Source: Lentinula raphanica (taxonomy: Eukaryota > Basidiomycota > Agaricomycetes > Agaricales > Omphalotaceae). From it: a DNA stretch of 64,000 nucleotides. Below the pieces are notes generated by a model, which saw only the letters and a list, made by a program, of their open reading frames with translations, did no database searches and was not told where the DNA came from. The translations under genes and the position numbers were made by a program. Position 1 is the stretch's first letter; each line of letters begins with the position of its first letter. The stretch covers positions 930,001 to 994,000 of the forward strand of contig JANVFP010000005.1 of NCBI GenBank assembly GCA_027919835.1, in the 5' to 3' direction. This document shows positions 1,560 through 6,284 of this stretch, piece after piece.

Positions 1560-3461
1560 CGATGCATATGATTGGTATATTCAAAACGATAGACTTGAAG
1601 ACGGTCTCTGCTGCTATGTACATGTATGAGTAATTCAGTGAATGCGTATCGTGTTATGTATAGCAGGAAATTGGCAAGAGGTGACAGAAAAACAAAACAA
1701 GGCGGACACGCGAAGTTGGAACTTGGTGCCGTGCAATTGCAGGAGCTGTCGCTTCATGATTGAGAGCCGATGTCATCCAAATGATGATTGTCGAGACCAA
1801 GAACAATGTCGAGAGAGCCGATGTCATCCAAATGATTGTCGAGACCAAGAACAATGTCGACAATACCTAACGAAACATCACTGTCCTGCACGATGATGTT
1901 TTGAAGTTCAAGGAGTTGGGAAGTTACGCCACAGAATCAACGTCGCAACCCGCTATTACATCTTGATCGACAAGACTGCATGGGAGGACCTTATGAGATC
2001 GTCGAAATATGTAGATGCTAAGAGATGCTGATTGATGCTAGGTCGAGTTACAATCCTTCGGCAAATGTGGTCAAGCTCTCCGAGTTTCTGAAATGCACCG
2101 GCAGTCAATTGGATTTCTTTTGAGCTATAGCAGCTGAGGGCAGCGGTCGCAGACGGTTCCTACAGTGCGTAAAAATTTGGACTCTTCTTTGACTATTCTG
2201 TTGTCTGAGCTTGTGTGCAGTGTAGAGCCAAAGTCGGTGATCATGAACAGAGGTGAAAAGAAAGTCAAGGTACTTGAAAATTTCTCACGAAAATCTCACT
2301 CAACTGGACACTCACGTCCTGCTCACGTCGTCCTTCACGAGCCTGTAGGGTAGAATCCATATCTCGAACTGCATTCTCTATACGACAAAGCTACTTCTCA
2401 GCGCTCAGCGCTCAGTGCTCAGTGCTCAATGGACCTCGAAACTCCGGTACTTGGTTGCCTCGCATCAACTCAAGTCTGAACTTTTGCAACTCGAACGATA
2501 GCATCGTGCATCGTTTCAACTTTCCACCCCATCCTGATTCCTAATGTGGTGTCTTTGTCAATTGTGGTTTGCCACTAACAATTAATCAGAATGTTCTATG
2601 AACCTCAATTTCCCAAGCTATCGTGGATTGCATCGTGTCAAATTCTGGTGTGTTTTTTTCTTGTTATTTCTGACTCGTACTACGGTTGACTCGTAATTTC
2701 TTGGCAGTCTTCAGGTATTTTCCCTACGATGATACAGCCTGCTCGCTTAGTCTCTTGCAGTGGGCTGAAGAAAGGTGAATGGCTGGGACAGCATCAACTG
2801 GTTTCTTCGTCGAGCCAACGCGTTGGATCGGATTCACGACCTTGAACGACCCACATCGTTATCAAAGGACCCACATTGGAGCACTTGATGAGAGACCCAT
2901 TTCTGTGAACACGTTCACACCGGTTGGCTATGTCCAGGCCGGATTTGATGAAGCGCAGCCAACGTGTCGAGTCATATCCTGACAGGTCCCTTGAATACTC
3001 AATGGCGAATCCGGGAGCAGACCTCGTTTCTGAGTTCGTGGCTGTTCGTGGGCGAAGATGAAAGAAGAATAATCGATAGCCTAAACCTTTTCCGTTCAGA
3101 GCTCTCCACATTTTTTTCAATCTGATAGGACCCACATCGTCCTTTATCTCCTCATCCTCATTCAATTGTTCTAGCATCTGATTCTGTCGCCCGACATCCC
3201 CGTTTCGCATTCTACCGAGTTGCAAAAGGATGGCCATTTTTGTCCAAGTCGTCCTTGTATTCTGACATTCCAGGTCCACGATACGCATCTGCATCATGCT
3301 GTTCTGTGGGCGGCCTCCAAGGTTCTCCCGTTAGAAAGAGTCACCGGTTCTGTCGCCCACCTTTGATTATCTCCCGTTGGATCAGGTCACCAGTGCGTTT
3401 AGCGTGCGGAAATTGCCATGCTGGTTGACTTGTGGGGATGAGCCCACGCCAGACGGAATGG
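1560..3461. other. Intergenic; no supported gene
   Basis: Apart from a short tandem duplication (1762-1860) and a heptamer run near 2399-2430 (gcgctca/gtgctca repeated), I see no gene here. The longest open frame is on the minus strand at 2794-3297 (167 codons, rich in charged residues, no recognised motif). It has no clear partner exons and is left as a weak candidate only. Confidence 0.5.
1762..1860. repeat. Tandem duplication, 51 + 48 bp
   Basis: Two adjacent copies of a unit beginning GAGAGCCGATGTCATCCAAA and ending GAACAATGTCGA. The copies differ by one three-base GAT/ATG step (51 bp at 1762-1812, 48 bp at 1813-1860). The duplication sits just downstream of the methyltransferase stop, probably in 3' flanking DNA. 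Confidence 0.9.
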
Positions 3462-3469
3462 TATAAAAG
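3462..3469 (+). promoter_or_regulatory. TATA box upstream of the hairpin-repeat region
   Basis: TATAAAAG in the context GGTATAAAAGCAGTCCC. It is followed by pyrimidine-rich DNA (CGCCTCTCTCTTTTGAAC) of the kind found at fungal transcription starts. No good open frame follows, so it may drive the non-coding transcript proposed for 3490-5110. Confidence 0.45.
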
Positions 3470-4156
3470 CAGTCCCAATTTCGCTATTGTTCACCAGAAC
3501 CATTCGCCTCTCTCTTTTGAACTTTCTATTGCTCTTATGCAGTTGAAGTTACCTCGCTAGTGGCTTAACGCTGCTCTTCGAGGTTGTCGCCTCCAACGCT
3601 CTTGAGAAGCTGTAAGCAATTTCTCAGAACGCATCGTATATTCTCTTGCTGATATCCCAAATGTTCTAGCCAACGACGGGAGCTACATCTTCTTCAAAGC
3701 ATGATGTCCATCAGTCCCCGTTAGTCCTACATTAAGGATCTGTAAGTACCCGATTCTTTGTCAACACTTGCAGATGCTCAACTCCGTCGTCTTCCTGACA
3801 GTATGATCACCGCAAACGTGGTTGCCTTCCTATGCATCTAGTTGCGTTCAAACGCAACGTAACAAACATGAACTCAGTATGCGGTTTCACATCGATCACC
3901 TATTCATGCAATGACTGTCGTACTAGGAGCTTTATGCTTTTTTGTAGATTCTTTGACGCGCAATGTCAGGAATCTACATCCCGCACAGCAGTCCTCTCGA
4001 GGCCGTCTGTCGTGAGTCGGGAAGCCGATTTTATCGCTCCCATCAGGGCATGTCTTCGCACTGCTGTCCTTGTCACTGAGGCTCGTCTGTCGTAAGTCGA
4101 AGAGACTTGCTCTGATTTCGATATCCTTTTTTCGTTTTCTCGTTTTCTCGTCATTT

Positions 4157-4192
4157 CATTCTCCACTTCATTCTCCACTTCATTCTCCACTT
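4157..4192. repeat. 12-bp unit x 3
   Basis: CATTCTCCACTT repeated three times head to tail without error, between the second and third hairpin units. Confidence 0.95.
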
Positions 4193-4827
4193 AGAATTCC
4201 TCCACATATTCCTACTACTACCATTATACCCGCACGATGGAAGCTACCCACGCACTGCAGTCGTCAGTCATAAGTCGGAGAGGTGGTTTCCATTCGTAAT
4301 CAATATCCTACTCTTGTTCTCCCTTCAATTTTCGATATACTCATTCGATATACTCACTACATACACTTCCACACCTGCACTACGCTTACACTTCTACGGC
4401 TACACCTTCTCGCCTACACCTTCTCGCCTACATACTACCACCATTCCTGACCGATGGAAGCTGCCCACGCCCTGCATTCGTCTGTCATAAGTCGGAGAGG
4501 GGCTTCTCATCGTGGTTCGCCTTCTTTACTTAGATTTCATCACTTCTGCTGTTTTTCATACCTAGGAGCATGTCCGCGCCCTGCGTCGTCAGTCATAAGT
4601 CGGAGTGGCATGTTTCTGATCTCGCCTTTTCATGGCTCCCTCGCTTTGGAGAACACTCGCGCCCTGCAGTCCCTCGTCTATCGAGGTACGTTGTCGGTCA
4701 TTAGCCGGAGAGTTGTTCCTCCACCTCTGGTCGTTTCTTCTCCTGATCCGGAGAACACTCGCGCCCTAAAGTCCCTCTTCGTTTGAGGGACTTGTTGTCA
4801 TTAGTCGGGGAGTGTGTAATCGACCTC

Positions 4828-4906
4828 GTCCGAAGACCACTCGCGCTCTAAAGTGCCTCCTCGTTCGAGGTACTTGTTGTCATTAGTCGGGGAGTGGTCT
4901 TCGGAC
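4828..4906 (+). ncRNA. Best hairpin unit of the array (79 nt)
   Basis: Outer stem GTCCGAAGACCACTC (4828-4842) pairs without mismatch to GAGTGGTCTTCGGAC (4892-4906). Inner stem AAGTGCCTC (4851-4859) pairs with GAGGTACTT (4867-4875) using one G-T wobble, around a 7-base loop CTCGTTC. The asymmetric internal loop holds the conserved GCGCTCTA on the 5' side and GTTGTCATTAGTCGGG on the 3' side. The shape is like one half of an H/ACA guide RNA, but the conserved loop argues against different guide targets, and no ACA box is evident. Confidence 0.55.
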
Positions 4907-5336
4907 TTTTCCTAAAGAACACTCGCGCACTGGAGTACCTCCTTGTTAGAGGTACTCGTAGTCATTAGTCGGAGAGTTAAGTTCTTCTCCTTTCCTGGGC
5001 CATGGTGTTGACGGTGAGTTTGATTATTCAATGGGTCACTGTTACTGACTTCGTGTTTCGCCCAGAAAAATCATACCAAGCCCTCGAAATTATTCTTGTC
5101 CTATCATATGTAGTATCTTGACTTGCAAACCAATATCATATCCTGAAATAGTTTATTCAAATGCTTATGCTACAGTACATGCTCAAACTTTCCTTGCAAT
5201 AACTACTACCACCTTACTATACTAAATTTAATACTTATTTGAAGTTCAACTCGTTCGACTATGGATTGAGTTCCAATACACTTGACTTCAAAACACGCTC
5301 ATACTCTCGCCTATGTATGCTTAAGTACCTTCTCTT

Positions 5337-5352
5337 GCGAACTTCGGTTCGC
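5337..5352 (+). other. UUCG-capped hairpin
   Basis: GCGAAC-TTCG-GTTCGC, a perfect 6-bp stem with an extra-stable UUCG-type tetraloop, about 100 bases upstream of the glutathione transferase start. It may fall in the 5' UTR; role unknown. Confidence 0.5.
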
Positions 5353-5448
5353 GGAGGTTACCGATACCCATACAGCAATGACATTGAACTACTTAGTCAA
5401 CTTGCTCTCATCTCATGACAAATCGCATCTTGCTTTCAATCGACCACC

Positions 5449-6284
5449 ATGAGTGAGAAAGGTATCATTTTCTATGATATCCCATTCGCAAAGGGCAATA
5501 TCTGCTGGTCGTCAAATACGTGGAAAGCGCGGTACGTTTGGCTGTATTTCGTTGTTCTAAGTCAAGGCTCTTATCGATAAGACACCTTGATAGTTACTGT
5601 CTAAACTACAAGAGACTCACCTATCGAACCGAATGGGTCGAATATCCTGACATCAAGCCCCTCTGTATCAAAATTGGAGCTGCCCCGACAAGTTTCGATG
5701 ATAAGGGTGACGCGGAATATACCCTGCCTGTTATATACGACGAAAACACAGGTCAGGTTGTTTCCGAGTCCTTCAACATCGCTGTTTATCTAGACACCAC
5801 ATATCCTGATACTCCGCGAGTCTTTCCACCCGGAACGAGAGCATTGCAGGCTGCGTTTGTTCACTACGCCGGTCTCCAGATCGGAAGGGTGATAGGAGAC
5901 TTCCTCCGCCCGGTTGTGTACGAGAAACTCCCTCCCGGAAAGAGCCAGGAGTATTTCCGAAGGACGAGGGAGGAGTTTTACAAGGTGAAGATAGAGGACT
6001 TGGCTCCTCGAGGAGAAGCCCGCGTGAGGGAGTGGAAGAAGTTCGAGAACGCTTTAGTTTTGTTTAGTAAACATTTTGGGAGGACAACAGATGAGGCCGG
6101 GGGTGAGTTTATATGCGGAAAGGAACCGTCGTTTGCGGATTTCGTGATGGCGGGGCTCCTCCAATGGTGTAAAGAAGGATTTGGATCTGAGAGTACGGCC
6201 CAATGGAAGGACATCATGACTTGGCAGGATGGGAGATGGGGAAAGTATATCGACAGTTTGGAGAGTTATTCTGTAGTCGTTTGA
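5449..6284 (+). CDS. Glutathione S-transferase, fungal-specific class A-like (GSTFuA)
   Basis: Cytosolic glutathione transferase; this fungus-specific class is expanded in wood- and litter-decay basidiomycetes and handles plant-derived or other toxic small molecules. Exon 1 (5449-5531) starts at ATG in a CCACC context. A 62-base intron (GTACGT...GATAG) joins to 5594, giving 258 codons plus stop at 6284. The thioredoxin-like N domain carries WSSNTWKARYCLNYK, RTEWVEYPDI, LPVIYDENTGQVVSES (cis-Pro and glutathione-binding Glu-Ser) and YLDTTYPDTP. The helical C domain ends with GGEFICGKEPSFADFVMAGLLQW, the usual GST N-capping Asp region, followed by a short tail. Length and order match the family. 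The Cys at codon 19 precedes the WS-NTWK signature. An unspliced reading would start at 5520 but loses the N domain, so the spliced start is preferred. Confidence 0.92.

Follow-up and report, generated by a model that had tools for sequence, protein, structure and literature searches.

Nine diverged copies of a hairpin with a near-constant internal loop at a single locus of a mushroom genome suggest a repetitive noncoding RNA

The mammalian long noncoding RNA NORAD, a decoy for Pumilio proteins, consists of repeated units that hold no fewer than 17 Pumilio sites, and the available text of two reports describes at least 12 structured repeated units whose modular structure clusters these sites (PMC4947167, PMC7617650). 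As far as that text goes, NORAD would offer the nearest way of working to the array described here, which resembles it in being one putative noncoding RNA with repeated units and many sites for one kind of RNA-binding protein, although the protein partner is conjectural in this case. The NORAD site is a short linear motif, whereas what stays constant in the array is an internal loop between stems that change; the kingdoms differ, and no homology is claimed. According to the excerpts available, the roX RNAs of Drosophila are likewise noncoding and carry stem-loops bound by the protein MLE. These stem-loops are few and are bound largely as double strand; the array differs from roX further in that it reaches no Rfam family cut-off. 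H/ACA snoRNA hairpins, too, have two stems separated by an internal pocket, but the array lacks an ACA box at a constant place 3' of its units: its pocket is constant and its boxes are not. Among fungi, the available text on the amd motif describes an elongated two-stem structure whose most conserved nucleotides lie in the internal loop and adjacent stem ends, with 23 unique examples from 20 species and nine said to have a uORF; words starting with tandem, repeat, basidiomyc or agaric are absent from that main text (Li and Breaker 2017, PMC5640933). The amd motif and the array unit both have two stems and a conserved internal loop, the two being compared by published description only.

The DNA analyzed is a 64-kb window within a genome of 49 Mb in 75 contigs. 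As placed by a covariance model, it contains, at 3969-4985 on the + strand, an array in which a bulged hairpin of 52-75 nt occurs in nine diverged copies (Table 1). This model (R1) was trained on eight of the nine units, with U1 left out, and was scanned over the window at E <= 10. It finds nine places, all on the + strand, and none besides. The training units score 42.7-85.8 bits and untrained U1 scores 20.2 bits (E = 0.0024; E-values of this model and of the two partial models below are rough), which bears out an initial annotation of about nine units, with U1 among them though outside training. Partial models were trained because the R1 training set held most of the units that R1 finds. The model of U6-U9 (R2) recovers all of the five other units except U1: U3, U5 and U4 have E-values of 8e-5 to 3e-4, and U2 has one of 0.025. 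R2 further gives a match to U8 on the opposite strand (E = 0.033) and to one fragment (E = 2.5). The model of U2-U5 (R3) recovers three of the five others, with E-values of 1e-6 for U6, 0.004 for U9 and 0.02 for U8, but neither U7 nor U1. Since R2 and R3 each recover most of the other set, U6-U9 and U2-U5 are related beyond chance.

Table 1. Features of the array and its surroundings, with positions in the 64-kb window (WC, Watson-Crick)
Feature	Position	Strand	Description
O-methyltransferase gene	ends near 1560 (by eye)	+	upstream of array; Methyltransf_2, E 1e-8, one 46-residue piece
TATAAA	3462..3467	+	possible promoter of array transcript; sole TATAWA/TATAAG/AATAAA match in 3301-5500, + strand
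U1	3969..4032	+	degenerate; 20.2 bits; P1 -4.5 kcal/mol; 5' arm also in hairpin 3943-3978
U2	4045..4113	+	14 P1 positions, among them one G-T and one mismatch; by eye, a 4-bp inner hairpin
Spacer U2-U3	4114..4231	+	76% pyrimidine, 5% G, short tandem repeats
U3	4239..4291	+	short type, without long inner hairpin; 10 P1 pairs (8 WC, 2 G-U)
Spacer U3-U4	4296..4451	+	69% pyrimidine, 7% G, short tandem repeats
U4	4455..4508	+	short type; model register 6 WC + 2 G-U of 10
U5	4565..4616	+	short type; 10 P1 pairs (7 WC, 3 G-U)
U6	4647..4721	+	long type, inner hairpin P2; P1 has two one-base bulges
U7	4749..4821	+	long type; P1 short (6 bp)
U8	4831..4903	+	long type; full P1 of 15 perfect pairs, 4828-4842 with 4892-4906
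U9	4913..4985	+	long type; outer 6 bp AAGAAC/GTTCTT, then TAA bulge (bulge by eye)
Intron-like stretch	5014..5065	+	GTGAGT ... TTACTGAC ... CAG, just 3' of array; from motif script, putative splicing
Glutathione S-transferase (GST) gene	start codon at 5449 (placed by eye, ATG present)	+	downstream of array; GST_C_7, E 2.6e-36

The outer stem (P1) keeps its complementarity while its arms diverge. The pairs quoted in the initial annotation are present: the long stem of U8 joins GTCCGAAGACCACTC to GAGTGGTCTTCGGAC with 15 of 15 pairs Watson-Crick, ACACTC at 4755 can pair with GAGTGT at 4810, and GGAAGCTACC at 4239 can pair with GGTGGTTTCC at 4282. The strongest test of its claim that the outer arms differ between copies yet stay complementary is a swap of the 3' arms, because P1 arms need no alignment. 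Each unit's own 3' arm was compared with every reassignment of the nine 3' arms, using 18 nt per side and the summed duplex energy. The own-arm total is -143.5 kcal/mol against a mean of -84.4 (sd 12.8) for the reassigned arms, and the claim is upheld by a count of 5 in 362,880 arrangements that are as good as the true one, the true one included. The count is 5 of 40,320 without U8, 5 of 40,320 without U1 and 5 of 5,040 without both, again with the true one included. The advantage of own-arm pairing is a property of the set and not of each unit singly. Taken one by one, only four of the nine 5' arms (U2, U3, U5 and U8) pair best with the 3' arm of their own unit; the long 3' arm of U8 pairs better than the own arm with the 5' arms of U1, U6, U7 and U9, and the 5' arm of U4 prefers the 3' arm of U3 by 0.3 kcal/mol. 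The P1 duplexes of U7 (-10.8 kcal/mol) and U9 (-9.0 kcal/mol) are weak, and that of U1 is near nothing.

Sequence identity was compared on the model alignment for the groups U1-U2, U3-U4, U5 and U6-U9. P1 arms, whose register was fitted to pairing, are 38% identical between groups and 52% within groups, and the core is 88% and 95% identical, respectively. Within units, 63% of P1 cells (n = 89) are Watson-Crick and 79% are standard pairs. Unselected drift should cost pairing to a like degree, and the pairing of arms that are 38% identical would therefore point to selection. Across the nine units, in an alignment fitted to the same structure and against shuffles that ignore how the units are related, 86.3% of cells are paired versus 75.6% in shuffles and the covariation score is 0.304 versus 0.148. 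None of 500 shuffles reaches the observed cells paired, both-side-changed cells, pair types or covariation score. Pairs with a double change number 9 versus 6.9 in shuffles, with 61 of 500 shuffles as high. When the partner is shifted by 1-3 columns, the fraction of cells paired falls to 40-45%. The consensus structure from RNAalifold has 11 pairs, eight of them in P1 and six with a double change, and is weak (-2.1 kcal/mol).

Kept complementarity could also arise from tandem inverted repeats that are maintained by template switching, or as palindromes that bind protein as DNA, with no function at the RNA level. The perfect 15-bp inverted repeat of U8 suits this explanation, as does the 82-bp tandem repeat that makes up part of the array, and the excess of G-U pairs is not robust. 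We nevertheless regard it as distinctly unlikely. The conserved core is asymmetric, with 6 nt on one side and about 14 nt on the other, and is no palindrome. Furthermore, P1 contains wobbles (two in U3, three in U5) and bulges (U4 and U6) that correction from a template would tend to erase.

The stems enclose a core that is near-constant, with 13 alignment columns identical in all nine units (C14, G15, C16, C18, T24, G52, T53, C54, T56, A58, G59, C61 and G62). The initial annotation described a fixed loop, which is too strong a word: GTCATTAGTCGG is exact in three units (U7-U9) and is replaced by GTCATAAGTCGG in U3-U5, GTCATTAGCCGG in U6, GTCGTAAGTCGA in U2 and GTCGTGAGTCGG in U1. Similarly, its constant GCGC is exact in U5-U9 only, but CGC occurs in nine of nine. 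Its view of the array as functional RNA with selected pairing and a constant loop thus keeps the pairing that survives as arms change and the conserved core, but not a strictly fixed loop. The core was also said to be unpaired. Four positions on each of its sides can pair, and the core-internal pairs C14-G62, G15-C61 and C18-G59 are possible in nine units and T19-A58 in eight; pairs that never vary carry no evidence of pairing. GTCATWAG does look unpaired on its 5' side, and this near-constant stretch is the putative recognition site. The inner part takes two forms, a hairpin (P2) of 7-9 bp in U6-U9 and a few bases only in U3-U5; U1 and U2 have inner hairpins of about 4 bp by eye. The inner stems of U7, U8 and U9 match those described earlier, and at one P2 pair three units carry C-G, G-U and A-U, whereas the two bases of a fourth do not pair.

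Variable stems around 13 invariant columns are also the layout of a small self-cleaving ribozyme, and known nucleolytic ribozymes are of comparable size. A new ribozyme of this kind, repeated in tandem, would have two stems about a catalytic internal loop and would cut the transcript into units. We consider this very improbable. No Rfam ribozyme matches 3300-5200 at E <= 5, a scan in which pseudoknots are poorly modeled, and the hammerhead CTGANGA does not occur on the + strand of 3961-5000.

Known RNA classes were sought more widely. No Rfam 15 family matches the window at its gathering cut-off, which answers the covariance-model check against Rfam that had been proposed; relaxing the limit to E <= 5 in 3300-5200 yields one sub-threshold match, nrdJ on the - strand, with E = 1.1 and 19.7 of the 40.3 bits that its cut-off demands. 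The initial annotation saw no tRNA, hammerhead or box C/D element, and none of the three was found when looked for. ARAGORN calls no tRNA or tmRNA gene in the window, Rfam gives no hammerhead match, and box C (RTGATGA) is absent from the + strand of 3961-5000, where box D (CTGA) occurs five times. Two further likenesses, noted by eye, were dropped because they fail across units: a D-arm resemblance (AGTCGG-AGAG) and a 5' splice-site resemblance, with GTGAGT in U1, GTAAGT in U2 and neither in U3-U9. The letters of the core occur in none of 5.39 million papers searched, and among the matches listed for basidiomycete or agaricomycete structured RNAs and fungal tandem ribozymes, no such array is described. 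By these sequence comparisons, the array appears to fit no known RNA family. Sequence alone hardly allows a choice among the functions first listed for it (protein-binding element, ribozyme, guide or small-RNA precursor).

A cluster of snoRNA-like guide RNAs, with the internal loop pairing to one target, strikes us as scarcely credible. Its hairpins with an internal pocket recall those of H/ACA RNAs, and the short H-box-like motif ANANNA occurs seven times in 3961-5000, in some cases within the 5' arms of U6-U9, but it has no constant place. An ACA within 40 nt past the core is found in one of nine units, where it lies inside the arm of the next unit, and box C is absent. Guides should differ among units, whereas this loop stays constant. 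The genome gives no sign of antisense targets, since reverse core matches number 48 against 84 in a control and are not in excess.

The evidence for reading the array on the + strand is weak. Folding is stronger on the + strand in seven of nine units, and fold z-scores over the array are modest, with means of -0.61 (+) and -0.15 (-) versus -0.01 outside; the two lowest of 320 windows are both on the - strand. Ratios of G-T to A-C in P1 are 5:0, 5:0, 7:3, 6:1 and 5:2 at five scoring settings. Controls with non-cognate arms lean to G-T too, from 12:4 to 48:20, so this ratio does not settle the strand. The five spacers of at least 23 nt have 8% G (three spacers of 4-12 nt were left out), and the units have 24-31% G. 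In the 64 kb, G is as low as in the two spacers of Table 1 in 2 of 6389 windows of 118 nt and 1 of 6385 windows of 156 nt, and C is as low in 5 and 5, so such base depletion is rare on either strand. With G-poor spacers, a + strand RNA would consist of hairpins on poorly pairing linkers. The depletion may also stem from simple pyrimidine repeats alone, without function; pyrimidine-rich short tandem repeats with periods of 8, 12, 13 and 14 occur in the spacers of U2, U3 and U4 (4127-4432).

No coding function is apparent. Three + strand open frames over the array (98-124 codons, stop to stop) have no Pfam match at E <= 0.1. Core-to-core spacings are 80, 178, 217, 108, 105, 100, 82 and 82, of which two of eight are multiples of three, and unit spacings ignore codons. 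The array thus combines many copies of a site with no frame that has a Pfam match; a NORAD-like RNA would carry such copies in one noncoding transcript.

The interval of about 3.9 kb between the O-methyltransferase and GST genes is without any nameable gene. Its - strand holds an open frame of 178 codons (2794-3330), and the 147 of these that were compared with Pfam gave no match. The GST, whose best relatives among solved structures are glutathione transferases such as 6j3e and 4lmw, has its start codon 464 bases past U9. The array could be a cis element in a long 5' leader or leader intron of the GST, where it would tune splicing or translation. Array and GST are on the same strand, the GST has its GST_C_7 domain match, the only TATAAA-type motif of the region precedes the array, and intron-like stretches flank it on both sides (a motif script gives three in 3400-5450, at 3612-3669 and 3877-3969 besides the one in Table 1). 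However, the leader would have the considerable length of about 2 kb, and TATA-less promoters are common in fungi, so the GST transcript could start nearer than 3462. We judge this explanation unlikely.

Several other structures lie near the array. A hairpin at 3943-3978 (TGTAGATTC...GAATCTACA) has nine perfect pairs plus more inside; it is directly 5' of U1 and shares the U1 5' arm. The windows 3911-4000 around it have the second and third lowest fold z-scores of 320 (- and + strand, respectively). Upstream of the array is a perfect inverted repeat, GTTGCGTT-CA-AACGCAAC, at 3841-3858. About 100 bases 5' of the GST start codon, GCGAAC-TTCG-GTTCGC at 5337-5352 forms a 6-bp hairpin with a UUCG loop.

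The array was found at one locus. The array and the adjoining 576 and 471 bases each match the source genome once, these counts being lower bounds, and single diverged units may lie elsewhere. As far as copy number goes, the refuting transposon match named in the initial annotation did not appear, and a dispersed transposable element was rejected because no array copies were found elsewhere in the 49 Mb, by counts that are again lower bounds. With at most two mismatches, the 3' core pattern matches the genome at 49 places forward and 48 in reverse; the control, which is the pattern read backward, gives 64 and 84, and the pattern does not exceed it. Eight of the 97 pattern places are in the array, and R1, which was applied in the genome to places preselected by the pattern, scored all 89 others. 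The best of 13 places has 16.7 bits; the other 76 include scores of 22.7, 17.4, 15.0 and 10.7 bits, and the remaining 72 have no match at E <= 10. Four further off-array pattern places gave no match.

The 22.7-bit place (L123, 65-124, in C53 of the same genome) has a TCGGAGAG 3' side and a paired outer stem. It scores above U1, and its E of 1.1e-4 in 16 kb scales to about 0.3 chance matches in 49 Mb. We read it as a probable chance match because it has no CGC core, came from a preselection by sequence and falls within this expectation. In IMG/VR, one and four stretches carry the pattern, and R1 has no match at E <= 10 in any of the five. GTDB genomes contain six pattern stretches against roughly 29 expected by chance at equal base frequencies, and four of the six match R1 with 11.9-24.1 bits. 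The highest score belongs to a deltaproteobacterial MAG (L036, 5942-5998) with the same core and a P1-like stem; it was judged a chance match because it is alone in its 8 kb and was preselected. Two Pseudomonas contigs (L033, 553-623, and L034, 2796-2847) have CGCCCTGGT...GGTTGTCATAAGTCGG in common at equal spacing, possibly as part of a conserved gene stretch that both share.

Stems that change in step, a near-constant loop, nine copies in one place and codon-blind spacing make a noncoding RNA that repeats one binding site the simplest reading. To this we give about an even chance: the locus would encode a single-locus noncoding RNA, read from the + strand, that shows one internal-loop site about nine times and works as a multivalent protein platform in the manner of NORAD. 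The variable P1, together with P2 in U6-U9, would hold open an asymmetric internal loop of near-constant sequence, with CGC-N-CU on its 5' side and GUCAUWAGUCGGRG on its 3' side. The loop would be the site and the stems its frame, and the array would most likely serve as a decoy or scaffold with many binding places for one protein or RNP. Against this reading count the weak P1 of U7, U9 and U1, the own arm being best in four of nine units, the modest z-scores and the weak RNAalifold consensus.

A broader proposal is tentative. Mushroom-forming fungi may possess an RNA family not yet recorded, of which the unit would be the type member, with a loop that is recognized by a dedicated protein or serves the RNA's own catalysis. 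The unit would have multiplied within a single noncoding RNA gene and been preserved by selection for its shape, which would make it the fungal equivalent of NORAD, roX or the Xist A repeat. Convincing covariation is scarce in long noncoding RNAs, and nine copies in one place allow a comparison that usually requires many species. If transcribed, the array would provide, in a fungus, a noncoding RNA whose module is defined and testable and could serve to find the protein that binds it.
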